Shown here one piece after another: positions 3,608-17,300 of a DNA stretch of 20,487 nt. The DNA comes from a virus, in the IMG/VR virus record IMGVR_UViG_3300048135_000367, positions 1 through 20,487 of that record, one strand, 5' to 3'. The position numbers and the translations under genes are program-made. The notes below the pieces were generated by a model. That model saw nothing but the letters and a program-made list of their open reading frames with translations, ran no database searches and was not told the DNA's origin. Each line of letters begins with the position of its first letter. The first letter of the stretch is position 1.

Positions 3608-3949
3608 TTATTCACCCCACTTTCTAACATTGCCTTTGCTATCGATTACACGAAATTTTTGCACCCAAAAATCATCTGTCTCTTGTAAAAACAGCGAAAA
3701 GCCATCTTCGTCATACCACTTAGCTTCAATTACATATTCACGCCAAGCATCATTATAGCTTAAGTTTAAATTCTTAATTATACTCGTGATGTTGTTAAAA
3801 TCATGTGCAGTCTCATCGTCATGCGCGTAATATACGAATGTGTCACCAAACTTGTAGCGCCATGCCTCTGGACACTCGCCCTCGCCGTTCCAAGTAGGCC
3901 AAGCTTTATTTTCCATTGCTTGTGTTTTTATTACTAATAATTTGTACAT
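3608..3949 (-). CDS. Conserved phage protein of unknown function (GEGECPxxWKFK-type N-terminus)
   Basis: 113 residues. The N-terminus, MYKLLVIKTQAMENKAWPTW followed by NGEGECPEAWRYKFGDTFV, resembles a small phage family that typically reads ..MENYGAHDWDGEGECPQYWK.., which I recall only as hypothetical. The rest is aromatic and acidic (NDAWREYVIEAKWYDEDGF). No catalytic motif is evident. AAGGAA stands about 8 nt before the ATG, and the repeated GGCAATTAAGCC leader box stands 18 nt before it. The gene therefore belongs to the group of small early genes sharing that leader. Confidence 0.7.
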   Translation of the reverse strand: MYKLLVIKTQAMENKAWPTWNGEGECPEAWRYKFGDTFVYYAHDDETAHDFNNITSIIKNLNLSYNDAWREYVIEAKWYDEDGFSLFLQETDDFWVQKFRVIDSKGNVRKWGE

Positions 3950-3967
3950 TTTATTTCCTTTGTTTAG

Positions 3968-4034
3968 GTGGCTTAATTGCCTGTATGACTTATTGTTATA
4001 TTGTTGTACTATTGCTGTAAAGTAATTTTTTTAC
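3968..4034 (-). promoter_or_regulatory. Leader/promoter module, copy A
   Basis: In the direction of the 3949 gene the module reads GTAAAAAAATTACTTTACAG, then an A+T-rich stretch with TACAAC and TATAAC, then GGCAATTAAGCCAC ending 18 nt before the ATG. The first 21 nt are identical to copy B at 5111-5131, and the last 14 nt to copies B and D. TTTACA and TATAAC could be -35 and -10 elements, though the 15-nt spacing is short. The upstream box lies inside the 3' end of the 4009-4560 gene, where it encodes KKIT. Confidence 0.6.
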
Positions 4035-4560
4035 GCTGATCTGCTTCTAAGAGTTTATACGCTCTTGGATTGTATACCTCATCTAGTATTGCTGGCATAA
4101 TACGGCTTTTATATTTTAAGATCTTACGTTTTGCATTCGAGTAATAACGTAAATATGCGAAGCGTGTATAACTGTGTTTGTATATATCTGGCATACATTG
4201 TGGTGGTGGTATAAACTTTGTATTTGCAATATTTTTAGGTGGATTGCTTAGCAGTGCAAGTAATTTTGTTTCTGTAGCATGAACTCTGCCGTAAATTTCA
4301 CTATATATAACACAAAGTCTGCTAAATAGTAATTCGAGATAAGCATAATGTGTACTTGATTGCCTTACCCATACATTACTAGGGTGATTTACATACGCTG
4401 GTTTATAGATCTTGTCTGTAATATCGCTATCACAGCCATCTACGATATGGTGTGCGGTGCTTAATAGTTGGGCATACTCTAATATCATTTTTACAACGTG
4501 TTTATCACAGTGCATTGATGCGGCTTTTATAGGGCATTCGTCTAAATAAAATATATTCAT
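4009..4560 (-). CDS. Conserved phage protein, MNIFYLD...CDKHVVKMILE family
   Basis: 183 residues. The N-terminus (MNIFYLDECP, then CDKHVVKMILEYAQLLSTAH), the internal NHPSNVWVRQS and the FIPPPQCMPDIYK segment match a family I know from many cyanophages and other marine phages, usually left as hypothetical. The conserved C-D-K-H, H and W-R-Q residues look like a possible active or metal-binding site. A distant link to pyrimidine-dimer glycosylase-like folds has been in my mind for this family, but I cannot confirm it. AGGGAG about 8 nt before the ATG is a strong ribosome site. It is the longest gene in the small-gene cluster between the replication and packaging genes. Confidence 0.75.
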   Translation of the reverse strand: MNIFYLDECPIKAASMHCDKHVVKMILEYAQLLSTAHHIVDGCDSDITDKIYKPAYVNHPSNVWVRQSSTHYAYLELLFSRLCVIYSEIYGRVHATETKLLALLSNPPKNIANTKFIPPPQCMPDIYKHSYTRFAYLRYYSNAKRKILKYKSRIMPAILDEVYNPRAYKLLEADQRKKITLQQ

Positions 4561-4574
4561 TTTTACATCTCCCT

Positions 4575-4853
4575 TTAATTATATTGCTTTTTTACTTTTA
4601 TATATTGCCATGAAATTACGTTATGAAAACTAATTGTATCATCATGCGAATTATATCTACTAACTTCACAACCCCAAAATTTAACACCATATTGATCAGT
4701 ATGTATATAATAGAATGCATGGTATTCTTGACCTTCATATTCAAATATAAATTCTGCATCAGTGCATTTAATATTTTGCTCTAATTTGTGCATTAACATT
4801 TTAATAGTTATAGCTTTAAGTTTAGATTTATTTATTTTTGTTTGTTTAGTCAT
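4575..4853 (-). CDS. Small phage protein of unknown function
   Basis: 92 residues. A basic N-terminal helix (TKQTKINKSKLKAITIKM) is followed by a beta-rich, aromatic C-terminal part (FIFEYEGQEYHAFYYIHT, FWGCEVSRYNS). No recognised domain. AAAGGA lies about 7 nt before the ATG, and the GGCAATTAAGCC leader box lies 16 nt before it. This links the gene to the 3949, 5047 and 9435 genes by shared control. Confidence 0.65.
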   Translation of the reverse strand: MTKQTKINKSKLKAITIKMLMHKLEQNIKCTDAEFIFEYEGQEYHAFYYIHTDQYGVKFWGCEVSRYNSHDDTISFHNVISWQYIKVKKQYN

Positions 4854-4869
4854 TTTGTTTCCTTTAATG

Positions 4870-4883
4870 GTGGCTTAATTGCC
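4870..4883 (-). promoter_or_regulatory. Leader box, copy D (partial module)
   Basis: GGCAATTAAGCCAC (reverse strand) ends 16 nt before the ATG of the 4853 gene, and it is identical over 14 nt to the boxes of copies A and B. The upstream GTAAAAAAATTAC part is missing here. The 3' end of the small 4898-5047 gene lies just upstream and contains TATAAG, a possible -10. Confidence 0.55.
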
Positions 4884-4897
4884 TTTTTTTACTAACC

Positions 4898-5047
4898 TTA
4901 TATTGCTTTGTGAAATTCACATCTGTAACCTTGTGATTGTATTTCTTTTACAGCCTGCAACATTGCTTCGTAACTATCAGCACAATCGACTGCATATAAC
5001 TCTACATTAATAATTTCTGCTTTTTTCATTGTAATAACTACAAACAT
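4898..5047 (-). CDS. 49-residue phage protein of unknown function
   Basis: A short frame of 49 codons. The product starts MFVVITMKKAEIINVELYAV, passes through DCADSYEAMLQAVKEIQSQG and ends YRCEFHKAI. It has the make-up of a small beta-alpha-beta fold (strand, strand, amphipathic helix EAMLQAVKEIQSQG, strand). AGGAG stands about 7 nt before the ATG, and leader-module copy B is just upstream, so it has its own complete expression signals. An internal ATG at codon 7 is an alternative start but is further from the ribosome site. Function not recognised. Confidence 0.68.
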   Translation of the reverse strand: MFVVITMKKAEIINVELYAVDCADSYEAMLQAVKEIQSQGYRCEFHKAI

Positions 5048-5063
5048 TTATTTTCTCCTATGA

Positions 5064-5131
5064 GTGGCTTAATTGCCTTTGATGATTTTGTAGTATATTG
5101 ATTGTATTTAGCTGTAAAGTAATTTTTTTAC
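5064..5131 (-). promoter_or_regulatory. Leader/promoter module, copy B
   Basis: Same architecture as copy A in the direction of the 5047 gene: the 21-nt block beginning GTAAAAAAATTAC at 5131, then TACAAT and TATACT in an A+T-rich core, then GGCAATTAAGCCAC ending 16 nt before the ATG. The distance between the two conserved boxes is the same within one nucleotide in A and B. Here the upstream box starts at the stop codon of the 5128 gene and is otherwise non-coding. Confidence 0.62.
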
Positions 5132-5337
5132 ATCTTAATATTACGTAGCATTTTGCTATTTACTTCATATTCTTTTAAACGTCTTATTTCAGAAGTTTTA
5201 ATTTTATTAAATGTAGTACCTGCCGCGCTACATGTACCTGTTACGCTTGCTGGTGTTGTGTTTAAAGCAAATGCAACTTGACTTATAGTCCACCATGGAC
5301 AACGTTTAACTTCTTCATATATTTTATTAATTAGCAT
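5128..5337 (-). CDS. Small winged-helix/HTH-like DNA-binding protein
   Basis: 69 residues. The segment WWTISQVAFALNTTPASVTG (residues about 15-34) reads as a helix-turn-helix: helix ISQVAFAL, turn NTT, recognition helix PASVTGTCS. A basic helix follows (IRRLKEYEVNSKMLRNIKM). It may regulate the nearby genes. Its end abuts leader copy B, so it could be the last gene of the replication transcript. Its ATG lies 11 nt inside the upstream gene, with TGGAG as ribosome site about 7 nt away. Confidence 0.6.
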   Translation of the reverse strand: MLINKIYEEVKRCPWWTISQVAFALNTTPASVTGTCSAAGTTFNKIKTSEIRRLKEYEVNSKMLRNIKM

Positions 5338-5812
5338 TTATAATCTCCAATACTGATACTGCTTTGCGATACATTACAACACGCCTGACATATTCTTGCT
5401 TAACGCTTTCCATTAAAACACCTGCAGATCTCGGCGCATAGTTGTTATTACTCTTACGCCAATTATTACACGCTAACTCTATTAAGTCTGCTGGATACTC
5501 GCTAAGATCCTCAATCCATTCTTTATCAATTTCATCTTGTACCGTAGGATTTGTATCGCGCTGGTAGTAACGACTTTCTAATATTTCAATCTTTCCTAAA
5601 ATATATGTTGGTTCACTTGGTTGTAGTAGTGACAAATAATGTTCTCTGACTTGTATTATATTCTGCTTTTGCTCTATTGCATTGTTATCATCTTGCACAC
5701 AATTAAATTGTCTAGGCCAGCCCACTAGCTTTATATTGTTCAAGCAACGCACCCCTTCGACTACGTCTTTGTTCGCTAATCTCTTTGAGTTTATCGGTAT
5801 TATGTTTGACAT
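5327..5812 (-). CDS. Putative replication accessory protein (helicase-loader-like by position)
   Basis: 161 residues. A region around residues 50-145 (REHYLSLLQPSEPTYILGKI ... DLSEYPADLIELACNNWRKS ... RSAGVLMESVKQEYVRR) resembles short helical proteins of alphaproteobacterial phages and prophages that sit next to replication initiators. The pattern is L.....P....i...le.l...y, then YPAD....A...Wr, then P..g.l...v. I infer a replication role, such as helicase loading, from this and from the DUF1376 gene just before it. No ATPase motif is present. The ATG at 5810-5812 has a strong AGGAG about 8 nt upstream, which places 101 nt of its start inside the 3' end of the preceding gene in another frame. 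Confidence 0.62.
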   Translation of the reverse strand: MSNIIPINSKRLANKDVVEGVRCLNNIKLVGWPRQFNCVQDDNNAIEQKQNIIQVREHYLSLLQPSEPTYILGKIEILESRYYQRDTNPTVQDEIDKEWIEDLSEYPADLIELACNNWRKSNNNYAPRSAGVLMESVKQEYVRRVVMYRKAVSVLEIINAN

Positions 5813-6464
5813 TAGTTTTTTCTCCTATTTTTTCTATTTTCCATTGCACATTGTTTTGCAACCATGCACGCCATTGTCTGTTAAAGTCTGTTGATTTTGT
5901 TTGCTTGTCAGTATGATAGGCAATGAACTTTTCTAGTTGTAATTCTAATTCATCAGTTGTCATATGCTTTTCAATAAGCTTGTAAGTTTTAGTGTTTTTG
6001 TTTAGCTCCTTTGGTATAAAATTATTAATAATAATCTGGTTATGGTTATGGTTATGGTTATGGTTATGGTTGCTAGGGCTTTGCTTTGTTTTTGCTATAG
6101 CTTTGCTAGAACTTTTATTGTTACTTTTCATTGACTTAGCGTGACCACCCCTTTTTCCTGCATCAACACGCGCTTTATGCTTTGCATTTGACTTGTCATA
6201 TTCTTCCATTAATCTTTTGTTATAATATCTGCCTTTTTTTATAATAAAAAATTCATCTAATATTGTTTGTATTGTAGCAATATCTTCATCTGATCTACAA
6301 AGACATTTACGTGCAATCCATATAATGTCGTTCGGTATTGTGCAACCTACTGTAGTCCAACATAAGCTTAGTAATCTGTTATATGCACCAAACTCTGCTA
6401 ATGTAAGATGCATTGTTTTGTAACCCATATCTTTTGGAAAGTAACAGAAATACGGTAATGTCAT
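5712..6464 (-). CDS. Replication protein with DUF1376 (YdaU-like) N-terminal domain
   Basis: 250 residues. Residues 1-95 show the DUF1376 pattern: LPYFCYFPKDMGYKTMHLTL, EFGAYNRLLSLCWTTVG, then a C.C/DE..I..IL..FF..K..RYYNKRL block. A basic stretch (HKARVDAGKRGGHAKSMK) and a low-complexity linker rich in N and H follow. The C-terminal domain (residues about 165-215) has LEKFIAYHTDKQTKSTDFNR followed by QWRAWLQNN, typical of replication proteins that pair with a helicase loader. Family members are found in phage replication modules and are thought to act at origin recognition or initiation. AAGGGA lies about 8 nt before the ATG. The linker is encoded by a six-base microsatellite, so its length may vary. 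Confidence 0.82.
   Translation of the reverse strand: MTLPYFCYFPKDMGYKTMHLTLAEFGAYNRLLSLCWTTVGCTIPNDIIWIARKCLCRSDEDIATIQTILDEFFIIKKGRYYNKRLMEEYDKSNAKHKARVDAGKRGGHAKSMKSNNKSSSKAIAKTKQSPSNHNHNHNHNHNQIIINNFIPKELNKNTKTYKLIEKHMTTDELELQLEKFIAYHTDKQTKSTDFNRQWRAWLQNNVQWKIEKIGEKTNVKHNTDKLKEISEQRRSRRGALLEQYKASGLA
6038..6071. repeat. Six-base microsatellite (GGTTAT, five full units plus GGTT)
   Basis: Five perfect consecutive GGTTAT units at 6038-6067, then GGTT. On the coding strand this gives alternating Asn-His codons in the linker of the DUF1376-type protein. The period is a multiple of three, so gain or loss of units keeps the frame. Confidence 0.95.
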
Positions 6465-6466
6465 TT

Positions 6467-6844
6467 TTAATCCCTTTTTATTTTTCTATCTATTGTTGTA
6501 CTGTAGTTGTCTATAATTATTTTTGCATAACCACCTTTACGTCTTTCTAACCAATACAAGTTTAGTTCTTTAATTAGGCTATCATCTACAATTACAGTAC
6601 CAGTTAAAACATCTTGTATGCCTTTTGCATGATTATCAAGATCTCTACGTCTCTTACAAGGCGGGCTGAGTGCTATAATTAATTTAATGTCGTAATCTAT
6701 AAGACTATCGTAATATTGTTCTGTCAGTGCTGTAGTGGCTTTTCTGTACCATTCTCGATATCTCTTTGACTTTATACGACGACGACCATGATTTGAATAC
6801 ATGGAATTTACAGATATTGGAAATGGCAAGATTAAATTAAGCAT
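6467..6844 (-). CDS. rusA: RusA-type Holliday junction resolvase
   Basis: 125 residues, normal for RusA. It begins LNLILPFPISVNSMYSNHGR, the usual N-P-I-S-V-N-x-x-y start, then carries a basic region (RRRIKSKRYREWYRKA). The catalytic acids are in RRRDLDNHAKGIQDVL (D68 and D70, with K74) and VIVDDSLIKEL (D87, D88). RusA dimers cut four-way junctions, resolving recombination and packaging intermediates. The ATG lies 8 nt inside ninB, and only 2 nt separate its stop from the next start. It therefore sits in one transcript with ERF, exonuclease, SSB and NinB. Confidence 0.93.
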   Translation of the reverse strand: MLNLILPFPISVNSMYSNHGRRRIKSKRYREWYRKATTALTEQYYDSLIDYDIKLIIALSPPCKRRRDLDNHAKGIQDVLTGTVIVDDSLIKELNLYWLERRKGGYAKIIIDNYSTTIDRKIKRD

Positions 6845-7253
6845 CAGGCTGTATGTCCTTTATATTAATGCCCCATTTACTTGCTTGTGCAATAATTAGT
6901 TCACAGAGTTCGCTGTGTTGTTCTTTGCTCATATTGCTTGTACTTGGATTAAGTGGCAACATACCACCATCAAGATCTGGCATAAATTGTGTTTTGTACA
7001 GACTTGCCGCAAATAATTGCTTCCAATTCTCAGGACTATAACGACCACCAATGTCGCTTATAATCCATTCATTTCCATTCCACCGTATTTGTTTGCTTAT
7101 GATTGTAAGTAGTGCCCACATTAGACTATTCTGGTCTGTAGTGCGTTTATTACGTTTCCATGTAATGTAAGTGCCAGTTGGTGCTTTTTTAGTCAGGTCG
7201 AGTGCTTTTAACCTTTCAACCTGACTATTAATTTGTAATGTATATTGCCCCAT
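6837..7253 (-). CDS. ninB: NinB-like recombination protein
   Basis: 138 residues, the usual size for NinB/Orf of lambdoid phages. Family features seen: KRNKRTTDQNSLMWALLTII, an I.W.G.EW....W.QLFAASL region (residues about 55-85), a PSTSNMSKEQHSELCELIIA block, and a terminal WGI. Lambda Orf (NinB) binds single-stranded DNA and SSB and supports RecF-pathway-like strand exchange, in place of RecFOR. The start follows the ssb stop by 2 nt, and no clear ribosome site is seen, so translation is probably coupled to ssb. Neighbours on both sides are recombination genes. Confidence 0.88.
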   Translation of the reverse strand: MGQYTLQINSQVERLKALDLTKKAPTGTYITWKRNKRTTDQNSLMWALLTIISKQIRWNGNEWIISDIGGRYSPENWKQLFAASLYKTQFMPDLDGGMLPLNPSTSNMSKEQHSELCELIIAQASKWGINIKDIQPDA

Positions 7254-7255
7254 TT

Positions 7256-7672
7256 TTAAAATGGTATATCATCGTCAAGAGGATAATCTGTTGTTATTGG
7301 CTTATCAGGTAATGTTGCAAGTCCTGTACCACTGTTATTGTTGCCTAACAATTTAATTTCACCATTATAACGTTCTAGCACAATCTCAGTTACATACTTA
7401 TCACCGCTATCGGTACTGTATTTGCGTGTTAGCAATTTGCCTTCAACGTAGATCTTAGAACCTTGACTGCTATAACTTTCCATTAACTTTATAATATTTT
7501 CATTAAATATGCTAATTTTATGCCATGATGTTTTTTCTTGCTTCTCACCAGTCTTTGACTTCCACCGTTCATTAGTTGCTAGTGTGAAACTCATATGTTT
7601 ATTGCCGTTGCTAAAAGTGCGTACCTGTGGCTGACTTCCTATGTTTCCAATTAAAATAACTTTATTAACCAT
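7256..7672 (-). CDS. ssb: Single-stranded DNA-binding protein
   Basis: 138 residues with one OB fold: VNKVILIGNIGSQPQVRTFS (residues 2-21), FTLATNERWKSKTGEKQEKT, SWHKISIFNEN, then GSKIYVEGKLLTRKYSTDSG. A short linker leads to the acidic tip DDDIPF. That DDIPF tail is the known docking site for SSB-interacting proteins, so the phage protein can probably recruit host or phage replication and repair enzymes. AAGGAG lies about 7 nt before the ATG. It starts 8 nt inside the exonuclease gene. Confidence 0.96.
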   Translation of the reverse strand: MVNKVILIGNIGSQPQVRTFSNGNKHMSFTLATNERWKSKTGEKQEKTSWHKISIFNENIIKLMESYSSQGSKIYVEGKLLTRKYSTDSGDKYVTEIVLERYNGEIKLLGNNNSGTGLATLPDKPITTDYPLDDDIPF

Positions 7673-8345
7673 TTTTTTCTCCTTGTGTTTGGTTATTCCA
7701 TGAAATTATTGCATTTTTTTTCTGTTCTAATTCTAATAATAATTTTTCAACTTCTGTATTAGCACATTGTATTTCTTCTAACATATATTTTTGATATTCT
7801 ATATCTGGAAACACTCTAAGGCGCGCTAATTGTAATCCAACTGGAAAGCGTGGATCATAAGAAACTATGTCAACCCATTCTTTTTTAGTTACCATTAGTT
7901 GATGCTGTAATTGTGTTTTATATTCAACTGCGTGTGCATTTTCTTGTAAATAGCTGACGTGCTTATGCATTGCAGATGGACATTTAATTTCTACTAATCC
8001 ATCATTATCAACTAAACCATCTGGCGAACACGTTATATAATCGTAGTTAGGGTGAGTTACCATACCTACTTCTTTTACATTTATATAACCAAACTCAAAT
8101 GCGTAACAATCTCTTGCTTCAGCCTCTAAGTCTGTTCCACGTTGCATAGCAGGGCTAGTATATGTATTTTGTTCGACATGACCAGTCATGCGTTCTAGTG
8201 CTAATTTTACAATCATGTTTTTACGAGATGTACTATAGCCAGATTTTGTCTTAGCTAATATGTCTTTAATACGAGATGCAGTAAAATTACCGCACCTCGC
8301 TTCGAACCATTCTTGGCTACCTTGTTCTACATTATGTATTTTCAT
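7665..8345 (-). CDS. YqaJ-type (lambda exonuclease family) 5'-3' DNA exonuclease
   Basis: 226 residues. The YqaJ pattern is clear: EQGSQEWFEARCGNFTASRI (residues 7-26), AMQRGTDLEAEARDCY (about 66-81), and the PD-(D/E)xK core D109 in CSPDG with E119-I-K121. EYKTQLQHQLMVT follows at about 141-153. The enzyme resects double-stranded ends to give 3' single strands for the ERF annealing protein encoded just upstream. I start it at the ATG 8343-8345, which opens MKIHNVEQ and has GAAG upstream. A GTG at 8357 has no ribosome site. It overlaps erf by 14 nt and ssb by 8 nt. Confidence 0.93.
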   Translation of the reverse strand: MKIHNVEQGSQEWFEARCGNFTASRIKDILAKTKSGYSTSRKNMIVKLALERMTGHVEQNTYTSPAMQRGTDLEAEARDCYAFEFGYINVKEVGMVTHPNYDYITCSPDGLVDNDGLVEIKCPSAMHKHVSYLQENAHAVEYKTQLQHQLMVTKKEWVDIVSYDPRFPVGLQLARLRVFPDIEYQKYMLEEIQCANTEVEKLLLELEQKKNAIISWNNQTQGEKNG

Positions 8346-8931
8346 TATTATCTTCACTTTTTAACATAGATCTTTTAGCTGTAAGATATAAACTACGTAA
8401 TGTAGCTTTGCTGTCACTAGGCATTTTTGTATGTCTTATAGTGTTAGCTATTGCATCTAATTCTTCTATTGTTACTGCTTGATAAATATTTTTTATCAAT
8501 GGTTCAGTATCAAAGTCAGGTTCTTGCTCTTTTGCATCATGTGACTTATTTCCATCATCGTCCTCAACTGGCATATTAAGTAGTGCTGATATTGCATTAC
8601 GTCTGCAATAAGTAAAGGTTGACATTAACACGTGTATGTCTTTGTTTTTAAGTGGTGCTTCTGTATCTGTTTCGTACCACTCACTACTTTCACCATGCGT
8701 TAATCGTGTGACTACTATGATTGTTTGGTTTTTAGTTATGCGTCCAAGCTCTTGCTGTATACTTAAATCATTATCAACAAGCGGTTTATTAGACGCATTA
8801 ATAACTGAACTGAGTGTCGCATATGTTGATTTGTAATGTGGGTTTTTGCCATCTTTCTTAGCACCCGTGATAGCATTACTAGCGGCTGTCACCGCTGGTG
8901 CTATGTTCTTTGTTGTTTCTGATGTTCGCAT
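8332..8931 (-). CDS. erf: ERF-family single-strand annealing protein
   Basis: 199 residues. The ERF signature is present: APAVTAASNAITGAKKDGKN, PHYKSTYATLSSVI (residues about 31-44), and the later FTYCRRNAISALLNMPVEDD block (about 112-131). The family forms rings on single-stranded DNA and anneals complementary strands, as in phage P22. The C-terminal part is acidic and helical, with no known domain. Strong AGGAG lies about 9 nt before the ATG. With the exonuclease downstream it makes a Red-like pair. Confidence 0.93.
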   Translation of the reverse strand: MRTSETTKNIAPAVTAASNAITGAKKDGKNPHYKSTYATLSSVINASNKPLVDNDLSIQQELGRITKNQTIIVVTRLTHGESSEWYETDTEAPLKNKDIHVLMSTFTYCRRNAISALLNMPVEDDDGNKSHDAKEQEPDFDTEPLIKNIYQAVTIEELDAIANTIRHTKMPSDSKATLRSLYLTAKRSMLKSEDNNENT

Positions 8932-8952
8932 ATTTAATCTCCTATTTTTATG

Positions 8953-9147
8953 CTATGTAATTTTTACAGGAACTAAGTCAGTTCCATGTGTTTCTGAATT
9001 ATAGTGTGTTATGTACCACTTACCATCACGACCATAATGTTTATGATAATCGGCTATGTAATTGTTCCAATTATCTCGTGGTATTTCAATATGTTTTGTT
9101 GTTTCGTTATAATTATAATAGCTGTTTGCTGGTTCGTACTGTACCAT
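8953..9147 (-). CDS. Small aromatic phage protein of unknown function
   Basis: 64 residues, very rich in Tyr, Asn, His and Trp (YEPANSYYNYNETTKHIEIP, ADYHKHYGRDGKWYITHYNS). No domain is recognised. The clear AGGAG about 7 nt before the ATG, the position between two other leftward genes, and the 9-nt gap to the gene before it support expression. It is the second gene of the leftward early transcript. Confidence 0.62.
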   Translation of the reverse strand: MVQYEPANSYYNYNETTKHIEIPRDNWNNYIADYHKHYGRDGKWYITHYNSETHGTDLVPVKIT

Positions 9148-9156
9148 TTTGCACTC

Positions 9157-9435
9157 CTATATCGCTAATGCTTGCGCTAAATGTTTAAAATAATGTACAA
9201 TATCTGCATTAATAAAGTCTAATTCTACTAATGTATTGTAAATTTGTTTTTGTTCTATTTCATTAGTTCTTTTCATCTCACTAACTACTGACTTGATTGG
9301 TATTAAATTTAAACCACTTTTACCCTCGACTTCTAATAGTTGAAATATATCAATATTTTTTTCTTCTATAAATGTATCAATAAATTTATTAAATCTTTGG
9401 TTTTTTTGGCTTTTATTATAAACTTGTATAGTCAT
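9157..9435 (-). CDS. First leftward early gene, unknown function
   Basis: 92 residues, helical and charged (NKSQKNQRFNKFIDTFIEEK, VVSEMKRTNEIEQKQIYNTL, ADIVHYFKHLAQAL). No known motif. GGAG about 8 nt before the ATG, together with the diverged leader-module copy C just upstream, makes it the first gene of the long leftward transcript. First genes of phage early operons often affect host takeover or regulation, but that is inference from position only. Confidence 0.65.
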   Translation of the reverse strand: MTIQVYNKSQKNQRFNKFIDTFIEEKNIDIFQLLEVEGKSGLNLIPIKSVVSEMKRTNEIEQKQIYNTLVELDFINADIVHYFKHLAQALAI

Positions 9436-9605
9436 TTTTTACTCCAGTAAATGGTTGCTTAATTGCAATATAGTTACACCTTAAATTGTATTTTTAGATC
9501 TGTAAACAAAATAATAGTAATTTTTTTACTTTACTTCTACGAATAAATAAATTACCCTACAACCATTACTAGGCGATTTTGCCACCAAATATAGGAGTTA
9601 GTAAT
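9436..9605. promoter_or_regulatory. Divergent control region between leftward and rightward operons
   Basis: 170 nt without a gene, very A+T-rich, between the divergent starts at 9435 and 9606. It holds leader-module copy C for the leftward side and the near-palindromic GTAATTTTTTTAC box at 9517-9529. The box is followed on the + strand by TTACTTTAC, as it is on the - strand in copies A and B. Promoters for both directions must lie here, since both flanking genes have their own ribosome sites. I cannot fix the -10 elements with confidence. An operator for one of the small HTH proteins is likely. Confidence 0.6.
9453..9529 (-). promoter_or_regulatory. Leader/promoter module, copy C (diverged)
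   Basis: In the leftward direction: GTAAAAAAATTAC (9529-9517), TTTACAG (9506-9500), TACAAT, then GCAATTAAGC (9466-9457) and AACC, ending about 17 nt before the ATG at 9435. Box order and box-to-start distance match copies A and B, but the distance between the outer boxes is about ten nucleotides longer. The outer G and C of the GGC...GCC pair are lost. Confidence 0.52.
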
Positions 9606-10223
9606 ATGAATAGTTTAGTTATAGATTATGACAAACCTGAGTATAAACGTCTTTATGAAGTTTATTTAGAGAAATTTAAACTTAGGCAAAACAAAGGTTC
9701 ACATGGAAAAAAAGATAGTGAAAGACAAAAGACATATGCCGCTGAAAGTATATATCGCAAAGCAATGAATATTAAATGTACATACCATGATGTTCGGCTT
9801 GATTCTGGAGCTTATAGAAATAGTGCATACGAATTTCACAATAAAATAGTTAATTCTAAAACATGGGCAAACCACACTAAATATCCAAGCATTAAGCCAC
9901 GAGCTACATTTTCTAGCAGACTAAGGGGTGCTAATGCAAACCGATATAGGGTTTTATATGGTGGACTAAGAGACAAAACTACAATAATACATGAACTAGC
10001 GCATAGTATAGGCAATCACCATCATGGCAGATCGTTTAGACAGTCACAAGTTATGCTAACAGGCAGGTTCTTAGGATCTGAACATAAAAAGGCACTCATG
10101 AAAGCTTACAAAAATGCAGGGCTTAGTTATGGTAAAGAGCGCAAACCAAAGACTTTCGAAAAGTATATCAATAATTATATTCACATGACGACTACACTAA
10201 ATCATCACAACAAGAAAGGTTAA
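9606..10223 (+). CDS. Zinc metallopeptidase-like protein (HExxH; SprT-like or TIGR04338-like)
   Basis: 205 residues from the ATG at 9606, which has AGGAG 8 nt upstream. A TTG nine codons earlier is less likely. A zincin motif HELAHSIGNHHHGRSF (H129, E130, H133, then H138-H140) is clear, with an HG..F spacing like SprT-type proteases. Upstream, ERQKTYAAES (residues 39-48) resembles the R..vY.AE start of the TIGR04338 putative metallohydrolase family. A basic C-terminal tail ends NHHNKKG. Possible roles are DNA-protein crosslink or host protein cleavage, but the substrate is unknown. It is the first gene of the rightward operon, so it would be expressed early. Confidence 0.75.
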   Translation: MNSLVIDYDKPEYKRLYEVYLEKFKLRQNKGSHGKKDSERQKTYAAESIYRKAMNIKCTYHDVRLDSGAYRNSAYEFHNKIVNSKTWANHTKYPSIKPRATFSSRLRGANANRYRVLYGGLRDKTTIIHELAHSIGNHHHGRSFRQSQVMLTGRFLGSEHKKALMKAYKNAGLSYGKERKPKTFEKYINNYIHMTTTLNHHNKKG

Positions 10224-10577: not shown

Positions 10578-10787
10578 ATGACTATTACGATAAAACAAAT
10601 AATCGAACAATGCGGTGGAACTAAACTGTTAAGTAAGAACTGCAATACACAATCACAAAGCGTAAACAAGTGGAAATACAATAATGGCATACCAGAAAAA
10701 CATTGGAGTACGATTATGAAATTATACGGTGCAGATCTAACGCCAGCAATATTACATGAGCTAAATGAAAGTATTAGAAATGATTGA
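10578..10787 (+). CDS. Cro/YdaS-like DNA-binding protein
   Basis: 69 residues. The start MTITIKQIIEQCGGTKLLSK, then NCNTQSQSVNKWKYNNGIPE and KHW, matches the YdaS/Cro-like pattern (..i...GG...la......svs.W...G.IP..hw). The recognition helix is at SQSVNKWKYN. Such proteins are transcription regulators of temperate-phage type. It may bind operators in the divergent region and balance the two operons. AAGG lies about 8 nt before the ATG. No partner repressor of full cI size and no integrase are in this window. Confidence 0.75.
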   Translation: MTITIKQIIEQCGGTKLLSKNCNTQSQSVNKWKYNNGIPEKHWSTIMKLYGADLTPAILHELNESIRND

Positions 10788-12840: not shown

Positions 12841-13254
12841 TTAGAGGCTACTTAATTGTGGCCTCTTTTTTTTTAGTTGAAAGTGTGGCATATCAATAAA
12901 TGATTTCCATAAACCACCCCATTCTAGTTGAACACCTAATTGGCTGGCTGATTGTAGCATAGCTGTTGCAACCATTGTTAAGTGTTGTTCGTTCCAAGAT
13001 GCTTTGCCATCAACATAAGCATATACGTCTAACGCCTCACCTGTTTGGTGTGCGCTAATCTTTTCATATCCATCGCACTTAGATAAGCCAGCTGTAAATA
13101 GTTCATATTGCTCTGCTTGTGTACGCAAGCCACCATGCAGTGGTATGCCAAAATCAATCTTAGTAATCTGTATAGCAAGCCTTGCTACTTTGTATATATC
13201 GGGGTCAACACCAAGCAGACGATTGCTACTACTTTTGCTAAATCTAAATGGCAT
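12841..13254 (-). CDS. Endolysin, M15-family (VanY/L-Ala-D-Glu type) zinc peptidase
   Basis: 137 residues. Seen: PLHGGLRTQAEQYELFTAGL (residues 38-57), then SAHQTGEALDVYAY with H69 and D76, and EWGGLWKSFIDMPHFQL with D121 and H124. This matches the H-x6-D ... W-(K)-x2-D-x2-H arrangement of single-domain phage M15 endolysins such as that of T5. The three zinc ligands (H69, D76, H124) and the catalytic acid D121 are present. No cell-wall-binding domain and no signal peptide are seen, so release depends on the holin gene just before it (TAATG overlap). The last codons form part of a + strand terminator. Confidence 0.9.
   Translation of the reverse strand: MPFRFSKSSSNRLLGVDPDIYKVARLAIQITKIDFGIPLHGGLRTQAEQYELFTAGLSKCDGYEKISAHQTGEALDVYAYVDGKASWNEQHLTMVATAMLQSASQLGVQLEWGGLWKSFIDMPHFQLKKKRPQLSSL
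12843..12874 (+). terminator. Rho-independent terminator for rightward transcription
   Basis: On the + strand AGAGGCTAC pairs with GTGGCCTCT (9 bp with one G-U), closing a 6-nt TTAATT loop, followed directly by an uninterrupted T run. It lies in the 3' end of the leftward endolysin gene. It would stop transcripts that started in the rightward operon and read on antisense through the metallophosphoesterase gene. The reverse strand lacks a T run after the stem, so it does not serve the leftward genes. Confidence 0.85.
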
Positions 13255-14366: not shown

Positions 14367-17300
14367 TTATGCTTCTAATGCCTCTAGTCTTGTTTCTAGT
14401 GCTTCAATCTTAGCAATAGCATCTTGCAATGCAGACGTTAGCAACGGCACTATCTTACTTTGGTCAATACCTTGATAATCTGGCACTTGCCTTGTTGCCA
14501 TAACTTTTTCTGTTGTTTCGCGCCATAGTTGACCTTCCTCAAGTTCATCTGGCTTCTCAACATCTGAGCTATGTATTACTTCATCAATAGCAGGGGTTAG
14601 CTCTTGCTCTTGCTCCTCATAAGTAGCCTCAACAGCAGGTGTAACAAGTTGCTCACGTTCTTCTGTTACCGCTTCAATTGCAGGTGTAACAAGTTGCTCT
14701 TGTTCCTCTGTTATCGCTTCGACAGCAGGTGTTAACTCATTTCCATCATCGTCATAGGTAGCTTCAACAGCAGGGCTAATCTCTACTGTGATTGTTTCAT
14801 AAACAGCATCAACGGCAGGGCTTATTTCTACTGTTACAGTTTCATAAACGGCCTCAACAGCAGGTGTTAGCTCAACTTGTATTGTCTCATATGTAGCCTC
14901 AATAGCAGGGGTGTATATGTCACCTGTTGCTTCGCTTTCAACATACTGTTGGTCTTGCATTGCATCTTTATCACCTACAATAGCTTCTGGTACTACCTCT
15001 TGAGCCTCATGTGCTATAAATCCATCTACTCTGCCGCCATCATTAACCCACTCAAAGTTACAGGGCTTAAGTGCTTTAACTCTATCAATACTACCTTGCA
15101 TAGGCTGTATATCAGTCTTGAGCCTATAGTCTGAGCTAGTTACATAAAAAGTTTGTGTACCTGTTGTGTTAATCTTACCTACTTGCCCATTAACATTTTC
15201 AAAACTAATATGCGTTCTAAGTGAGCTACTACCTGAGTATGTTATCAATGCAGGTGTGCTACTACTTTGCACGTGGCTTTCAATAGTGCCACCACCAGCA
15301 GGTGTTGCGTTACCAACATTTAAGTTAGTTGATACTGTAACACCACCTGTTACACTGAGCTTAGCACTCGGATTTGCGTCTCCTATGCCTACGTTACCGT
15401 TGCTATCAATACGCATACGTTCTGCGCCTGCTGCTTTAATAACAGTTGCAAAACCACCATCATTAGCATTTAACGTTAAATTAGAATTATGCGCTTGTAT
15501 CTCCGCAGGATACATATGCGTTCTGACTGCATCTGTATCGTTAGTAATTCTTATTGCCTCTGTAGAGGAGTTTGCAACAGTTGTTTGTAGCTTTACAGAT
15601 GGTGACGTAGTTCCTATGCCCAAGCGGCCATAATTATCAAGACGCATACGTTCAGTTACAACATCATCTACACCGCCATTATTTTGCAATGTACCAAATC
15701 TAATGCAACTATCGGGCGTTGTGTCTAATGCGTTTGCCCTAATAAATGCAAGCACTTCATTACCATCTTCAGATGTATCATTTCCTTTAAAATCAATACC
15801 GCCAATCAACTCATTAGCGCTTATAGATGTAATAGAATTTTCTAGTGTTAGTGTAGAGCCACCGCTTCTAGTAGCATTTAGATTACCTGATGGTATACTA
15901 ACGTCACCGCCTGTAGCAATCGTTAATCTTTCTGATGCGGCGGCAGTCCCCTCACTGATTGTGAAAGACGTACCTAAGTTTCCTGATATACCTGCTTTCC
16001 ATTCTGCTGTAGTTACATTGTTTCGTCCAAACGTAACATTTGGCGCACCATTTCCCCTTAGATGAATACCTGTGTAGTTTGTAGGATTAGCAACCTCTAT
16101 ACCACCTGTTACATCTATACCACCTGCAAAGTAACCTTTACCATCACCTTTAATCGAATGACGTAATGTACCACCTGCACTGTACTTACTAAAATAACCG
16201 CCTGTAACAGCACCACTTGCCGCATGGTCTATACTTATTATACCGCCATCGCTTTCAAAGTTAGTACCGCTAGTAGCAATAGCAAGACCTTTAGATGTAT
16301 TAGAAGCACCTGATGTAGCAACATCTATAGCACCTGTTACATCTATACCAGAAGATGTTGTCTCAAGTTTCTTAGCGTTGTCATAATATAAATCAACAGA
16401 ACCATTAGCAGTAAACTGTGCCATTTTCTCATTGTTTGCGGCATTATCAATGTGTACTGTATCTGACCTTATATCGAGAAAACCTGTACTATTTGTGATA
16501 ATACTATTTGTGGCATTATGTGATATTTTTAAATCGTTACCCGTACCAACTCTTATTTCACTATTGTCTGGTAAAGATATATTACCACTTGCCTCTATAT
16601 TACCTGTTACATCTATATTACCTGTGCCTATAATATCGTGTGAATTAAGCGTTAAGTCTCCACCTAACTCTGGTGACGTGTCGTCTACTACATTTGTAAT
16701 ACCACCACTTGCAGTTGCACTAATAACACCACCTGCGGAAATTGCCACATTTGCACCTGCCGATATTTCATCTAGTGTTACATCTGCACCTGTAGCTATT
16801 CCGTCTAATTTTGTATGGTCTGCATCTGTAAATGCGTTTGTATTACTGTTACTTTCATACGCTGTTTTGATTTGCGCGGCTGTCTGGTCTGCTGTTGCAC
16901 CTGCTTCAATACCATCAAGCTTTGTGCCGTCTGTCGCTAAGTCACGACTATCTACTGTGCCGCCAACAACTATATTTCCAGATACATCTAATACGCCATT
17001 CACATCTACTGTTGTGGCCGCTATTTGTATCTCTGTATCAGCCACTAAATCTAATTGTCCATCTGCACTAGAATTTATATAAATAGCACTATCTCTAAAC
17101 TGTACTTTCTGTGCTGTTGTAACTTCTATGTTATTACTGCCTGTAGTATTACCAAGCCCTAGTACCTCTGATAAGGTATCTGCTGTACCTACCTGCGCGT
17201 CTACATATGCTTTGATTGACTGCTGTGTAGCTAGTTTTGTGGCACTATTTGATGCCATATTATCTTCGTCGGCAATGTCTGTAATTGTAACTGTGCCTGT

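Follow-up and report, generated by a model that had tools for sequence, protein, structure and literature searches.

The leader modules and their genes

The DNA analysed here, called the window, is a stretch of 20,487 nucleotides (nt) of an IMG/VR virus contig (IMGVR_UViG_3300048135_000367), in which a leader module that joins a putative promoter and dyad to a short RNA hairpin recurs in front of small genes. On the minus strand, copies A (3968-4034, 67 nt) and B (5064-5131, 68 nt) read, from 5' to 3', GTAAAAAAATTAC-TTTACAGC ... GGCAATTAAGCCAC ... AGGA ... ATG, and a base-by-base check established that they have in common a 21-mer, GTAAAAAAATTACTTTACAGC, and a 14-mer, GGCAATTAAGCCAC, the ends being identical and the middle diverged. 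Copy C (9453-9529) is the diverged form of the same arrangement and retains GTAAAAAAATTAC, TTTACAG and TGCAATTAAGCA in unchanged order, with an insert of 10 nt located 3' of the first box (box 1), while copy D (4870-4883) consists of the last box only. The 14-nt box is made of a hairpin, GGC-AATTAA-GCC, and two flanking bases.

These four copies, their positions and boxes, and the sizes of the genes behind A, B, D and C (113, 49, 92 and 92 amino acids (aa)) had been reported in the initial annotation, and they were confirmed. Compared by eye, alignment not having been run, these genes show no mutual resemblance. The count of four overlooked a fifth copy, E, which lies on the plus strand (9517-9583) and is composed of the box, directly followed by TTTACT, 17 nt, TACCCT and GGC-GATTTT-GCC, after which the rightward gene starts at 9606. 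Modules C and E are divergent and arranged around one common box 1 (Table 1). Repeats of a 21-mer appeared in none of 100 dinucleotide shuffles, and the three exact 13-mers on one strand also exceed chance, for which 2.5 matches are expected even with two mismatches permitted.

Gene duplication as the origin of the copies was rejected, the flanking genes being unrelated and the spacers diverged. The conservation of the module in relatives, where further copies were found at gene starts, supports the earlier proposal of a dispersed control element. The same proposal treated the boxes as one leader: the boxes are real, but they belong to two separable elements, namely the promoter and dyad part and the RNA hairpin, which are discussed in turn below.

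Table 1. Coordinates of the leader modules and of associated features in the window
Feature	Position	Strand	Remark
Module A, box 1, possible operator or UP-like element with the dyad GTAA-N5-TTAC	4022..4034	-	within the 3' end of the upstream open reading frame; same in L004
Module A, putative -35 TTTACA	4016..4021	-
Module A, putative -10 TAACAA, spacer 17	3993..3998	-	weak consensus match
Module A, RNA hairpin GGC-AATTAA-GCC	3970..3981	-
Shine-Dalgarno AGGA of the 113-aa gene (3608-3949)	3956..3959	-	pairing possible with CCU directly 3' of the hairpin
Module B, box 1, dyad GTAAAAAAATTAC	5119..5131	-	overlaps the upstream gene's stop codon; GTAAATTATTTAC at the equivalent place in L087, L090, L099
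Module B, putative -35 TTTACA	5113..5118	-
Module B, putative -10 TACTAC, spacer 17	5090..5095	-
Module B, RNA hairpin GGC-AATTAA-GCC	5066..5077	-	precedes the 49-aa gene (4898-5047)
Copy D, hairpin box alone	4872..4883	-	precedes the 92-aa gene (4575-4853), which is placed differently in L004
Box 1 common to modules C (leftward) and E (rightward)	9517..9529	.
Module C, putative -35 TTTACA	9501..9506	-	10 nt (one helical turn) off box 1
Module C, putative -10 TAAGGT, spacer 17	9478..9483	-
Module C, RNA hairpin TGC-AATTAA-GCA	9456..9467	-	compensated outer pair; precedes the 92-aa gene (9157-9435, phrog_6004)
Module E, putative -35 TTTACT	9530..9535	+	abuts box 1
Module E, putative -10 TACCCT, spacer 17	9553..9558	+
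Module E, RNA hairpin GGC-GATTTT-GCC	9572..9583	+	loop AATTTT in L093, AATTAA in L085, L087, L090; precedes the rightward gene, ATG 9606
Small Cro/YdaS-like helix-turn-helix (HTH) protein, best candidate for a dyad binder	10578..10787	+	Pfam YdaS_toxin, E 6e-07, 29.6 bits, curated cut-off 30

The putative promoter and dyad part

Close relatives of the window are few (contigs L004, L085-L093, L099-L104 and L257). The module is present in the relatives examined except L092, a more distant one, in which no copy was found. Every promoter-type copy in the close relatives contains TTTACA or TTTACT, which a 17-nt spacer separates from a hexamer starting with TA (TAACAA, TACTAC, TACTAG, TATATA, TACTGT, TACTAT, TAAGGT and TACCCT across the window and its relatives). 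In this family the hairpin starts 9-15 nt after the hexamer, and its box lies about 17-23 nt upstream of the ATG. Dyad, TTTACA/T, 17-nt spacer and TA-starting hexamer probably constitute a sigma70-type phage promoter with an operator, and the support for this comes from their conservation in relatives, not from consensus score.

Box 1 occurs as GTAAAAAAATTAC, as GTAATTTTTTTAC and as the perfect dyad GTAAATTATTTAC, and L257 has instead GGACAAAAAGTCC, ahead of another -35-like hexamer; the symmetry is retained despite these changes of sequence (GTAA-N5-TTAC, GTAAAT-N-ATTTAC, and GGACAAAAAGTCC in L257). L085-L091 have, in their divergent region, a box-like sequence adjacent to the leftward -35. 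The window's box instead adjoins the rightward -35 and stands one helical turn (10 nt) from the leftward one. A phage regulator probably binds at the dyad, and the Cro/YdaS-like HTH protein encoded at 10578-10787 is a candidate for this role. A substantial minority possibility is that box 1 is merely an A-tract or UP element and no operator: it is A/T-rich and beside the -35, where UP elements sit, but its dyad symmetry outlives the sequence changes just listed and a single box 1 serves both divergent promoters. For the earlier suggestion that promoter and operator are combined, the conserved dyad, hexamers and spacing and the dyad common to divergent promoters speak in favour, and the weak -10 hexamers considered below speak against.

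The RNA hairpin

The outer pair of the hairpin varies in the window's group, being G-C in copies A, B, D and E, T-A in C of the window and of L093, A-T in C of L085, L087 and L090, and C-G in L257, while C-AATTAA-G is constant except in copy E of the window and of L093, which carry other loops. Because the outer pair covaries and the loop stays fixed, the last box is, on this comparative evidence, an RNA hairpin with an AAUUAA loop. RNA folding returned the hairpin as a local stem in every leader tried. Often another small hairpin formed in addition and took up the Shine-Dalgarno, by CCU/AGG pairing in A, by CUC/GAG in B and by CCA/UGG in C. A described RNA family was considered for the hairpin and rejected, as the window has no gathering-level match in Rfam.

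Two hairpin-only leaders of L257 (6431 and 10875) have a GC-rich tetraloop hairpin (GGGGGCGCAAGCCCC and GGGGGCGTAAGCCCCC) about 8-9 nt upstream of the AATTAA hairpin, which is perhaps a terminator or a processing site.

Distribution in viruses and cellular genomes

A scan for TTTACA...GCAATTAAGC...AGGA retrieved unrelated contigs in which this layout recurs and the loop is the same but sits on longer, different stems, such as CCAGC-AATTAA-GCTGG and CATAGC-AATTAA-GCTATG. Followed by a Shine-Dalgarno and ATG, GGCAATTAAGCC occurs in 109 IMG/VR stretches, against 1 for the control loop AAATTA, which has identical dinucleotides and the GGC stem and is the only loop control run on the whole collection. 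The flanks of the viral copies lengthen the stem: for 88 non-redundant hits chosen by GCAATTAAGC alone, the mean is 2.1 extra pairs versus 0.63 +/- 0.10 when the 3' flanks are permuted (the highest of 5000 permutations being 1.02), and 29 of the 88 have at least three extra pairs, versus 5 under permutation. In bacteria and archaea (257 Gb of genomes), the same pattern gave 48 hits, where our estimate from base composition is about 34, and these cellular hits show no significant stem excess (0.70 versus 0.52 +/- 0.12). In these searches, the hairpin is specific to viruses and not peculiar to this phage.

Copies outside the first search pattern have the same loop on stems GAC/GTC, GGT/ACC and TGTTGGT/ACCAACA. 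When two pairs were left free among purine/pyrimidine (R/Y) combinations, the paired combinations dominated, with C-G with G-C accounting for 24 of 73 and the T-A/A-T class being inflated by TAA stop codons. The GC content of the carriers ranges from 25 to 63%. The occurrence of the last box in many unrelated phages, as well as its presence without the promoter part (D, L087 and L257), makes it unlikely to be an operator of the phage's own regulator, as had been suggested for the leader.

AATTAA as a generic terminator loop was also tried and rejected, given that in a further control, with all A4T2 loops in the collected contigs, it was not enriched over the others outside the position before a Shine-Dalgarno. 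Terminators with this loop do exist, in L113, L126, L257, L280 and the window, where a terminator-like hairpin, AGAGGCCAC-AATTAA-GTAGCCTCT, with an A run ahead, occupies 12843-12866 on the minus strand and has a homologue in L257.

Position at the presumed start of messages

Of 130 non-redundant AATTAA hairpins located before a Shine-Dalgarno, strong sigma70 promoters precede 23, versus 3.5 in shuffles, in which strong promoters were counted at any distance; in 18 of the 23 the -10 ends 6-15 nt upstream of the stem. The phage contig G001 (L349-L356; 153.5 kb, about 26% GC) contains eleven Shine-Dalgarno-associated copies of the hairpin and ten similar promoters, TTGACAAATCC...TATACT, eight of which are followed by the hairpin at exactly 8 nt.

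In three more contigs (G002-G004), the hairpin lies immediately 3' of the ends of tRNAs or tRNA-like elements, as if these phages used tRNA processing to create mRNA 5' ends. A tRNA-Phe was confirmed by ARAGORN in L190 (4138-4209), where the hairpin begins at about 4210, and the other tRNA-like ends, not called by ARAGORN, were read by eye from acceptor-stem and T-arm sequence. Because both the promoter and the tRNA-end routes would place it there, the hairpin appears to mark the 5' ends of mRNAs. The tRNA-Phe and the tRNA-like minihelices recognised by eye abut AATTAA hairpins and small genes in L190 (4138-4250), L250 (about 8850-9560), L165 and L360 (G002-G004).

Proposed function and alternatives

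From the architecture, covariation, loop and virus specificity and nearness to -10 hexamers or tRNA ends observed above, we infer transcript starts, operator binding, a role in protection or translation and a recognising factor, as follows. Modules A, B, C and E would be phage promoters for a host-type RNA polymerase (-35 TTTACA/T, 17 nt, a -10 starting with TA), with a dyad operator that adjoins the -35 or sits one helical turn away. Transcription would begin a few bases upstream of the AAUUAA-loop hairpin, which would be followed by the Shine-Dalgarno and mostly by a small gene, so that the mRNA would carry, at its 5' end, a cis-acting RNA element specific to phages. There, the hairpin would most likely guard against 5'-dependent decay and/or assist translation by keeping the ribosome site presentable; a role in translation is plausible because the hairpin precedes the Shine-Dalgarno. 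Since stability alone does not explain a fixed loop, the data suggest that the loop is a recognised motif. Its reader would be a factor conserved across many bacteria, for example the ribosome or a decay enzyme, which is likelier than a factor of the phage's own because the carriers span 25-63% GC. Copies made of the hairpin only, like D, would act for genes within operons.

This complete reading, with promoter, dyad operator and a phage-specific 5'-end hairpin that aids the mRNA, has in our estimation a little better than an even chance of being correct. Several observations weigh against it. The -10 hexamers of the window are weak, a generic scan for promoters in this region gave no excess over shuffles, and copy D has no recognisable promoter. 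Copy E of the window has the loop GATTTT and not AATTAA, the 3-bp stem of the window is short and only marginally stable alone, and a simple protective stem does not need a fixed loop. Furthermore, no AATTAA hairpin before a start was found in 79 viral contigs (739 kb) chosen for another gene, and the hairpin is consequently confined to a minority of phages.

A broader proposal, which we advance tentatively and hold to be somewhat less probable, is that of a phage-wide RNA signal, that is, a hairpin at mRNA 5' ends whose loop is invariably AAUUAA and whose stem is free, the end being generated either from a promoter or by removal of an upstream tRNA or tRNA-like element. It would be read by a common bacterial factor (ribosome, RNA polymerase or decay machinery), and the mRNAs of unrelated phages would thereby be favoured over those of the host.

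Other functions of the hairpin appear unlikely to different degrees. The least unlikely is a translational operator, in which a phage-encoded RNA-binding protein on the AAUUAA hairpin would block or open the adjacent Shine-Dalgarno. The fixed loop would suit such a protein, and in the window's family the Shine-Dalgarno can indeed pair just 3' of the hairpin, as the foldings of A, B and C indicate; however, this pairing is weak and not seen in the other carriers read, and no phage protein is known as common to the carriers, which look unrelated. The hairpin could also be an antitermination or RNA-polymerase-modifying signal on early transcripts, comparable to boxB or to the put RNA of HK022, since early-type transcripts would carry it at their 5' end and it combines a fixed loop with a free stem, as hairpins bound by proteins generally may do. 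This is still less probable, because in the sets studied the hairpin always stands just before a Shine-Dalgarno (partly by selection), often with one copy per small gene, because it is also found at tRNA ends and inside operons, and because it is much shorter than put.

We give little credence to GGCAATTAAGCC acting at the DNA level, as an operator where transcription starts, whose symmetry would reflect the site of a dimeric phage repressor. The putative promoters do have an imperfect palindrome at about +3 to +9, and the gene of a small Cro/YdaS-like HTH protein lies nearby; yet the bases of the stem vary freely with compensation and only the centre is fixed, and it is this covariation of the stems that downgrades the operator reading. 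In addition, the element is present without a recognisable promoter (D and the tRNA-linked copies) and is common to unrelated phages.

Finally, small genes are reshuffled around the leaders. In the sister contig L004, copies A and B are present and D is absent, the homologue of the gene behind D being located elsewhere, without the box; in L087 the 113-aa gene has a B-like leader, and L257 has six leaders, some ahead of genes that are leaderless in the window. The leaders thus appear to be junctions at which small genes swap between phages, and locally they would explain how small accessory genes move between phages yet remain expressed. That the copies simply arose by recent duplication, or serve as linkers for recombination, and regulate nothing, as this reshuffling might suggest, is very doubtful, for A and B have identical boxes around a diverged stretch and the unrelated stems of the hairpins of other phages leave the fixed loop inexplicable by shared descent of the DNA.

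Other features of the window

The rightward gene behind module E (9606-10223, plus strand) encodes HELAHSIGNHH, a metzincin-like HExxHxxGxxH zinc motif, and in the homologues from L087 and L090 HExxH is followed by a different tail. At 6039-6069, a run of TGGTTA hexamers is translated into an (HN)n stretch of a 250-aa primosomal-like protein; the length of the run and its codons vary among relatives. A degenerate 45-nt tandem repeat (14570-14913, minus strand), rich in TPA(V/I)EA, encodes the C-terminal part of a 1102-aa tail-like protein.

Significance and comparison with known systems

In a search for close isolated relatives, nearly all matches of the terminase and exonuclease in the phage collection were below 60% identity. 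No phage paper with the box or the AAUUAA hairpin was found in the open literature, subscription papers being outside the search, and the occurrences of the 10-mer, among the matches listed, are in non-phage papers and look like primers or chance. A spread of AAUUAA-loop elements over phages seems to be undescribed, as far as the open literature goes. Phage messages compete with host mRNAs for translation, and a hairpin with a fixed loop would be a simple and portable signal; it is testable by one reporter series and could be used to locate phage transcript starts and promoters in metagenomes.

Among the known systems, the early promoters of lambdoid phages, with operators of the Cro/C1 type, resemble the window in the divergent promoters, the dyads and a rightward operon that includes a gene for a small Cro-like HTH protein; the window differs in having one dyad common to both promoters and extra copies inside the leftward operon. 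The leader of T7 gene 10 is a phage leader with a 5' hairpin that supports strong translation and is transcribed from a promoter of the T7 RNA polymerase. Both this and the present elements are phage leaders with a hairpin, but that of T7 has a different loop and no repeated dyad.

The stem-loops that stabilise the 5' ends of bacterial mRNAs are not known to require a particular loop sequence, whereas here the loop is fixed; the two are alike in that a stem-loop precedes the Shine-Dalgarno at the 5' end of the mRNA, which in the phages is a presumed end. Examples of such stabilisation are ompA, papA and synthetic stem-loops (works listed in PMC3997798).

In the SAS/ESAS system of Cluster K mycobacteriophages, a short box is repeated before the start codons of many small non-structural genes of varied families, and about half of the boxes have a second, inverted-repeat element upstream; the function is unknown and a role in translation has been suggested (PMC3203893). 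Here, too, boxes are repeated before small genes, in five copies, four of which have the dyad. The SAS, GGGATAGGAGCCC, includes the Shine-Dalgarno, whereas the hairpin lies upstream of it, has a fixed AAUUAA loop on a variable stem and is found in unrelated phages. SAS/ESAS is thus the nearest precedent, alike in anatomy and different in sequence and spread.

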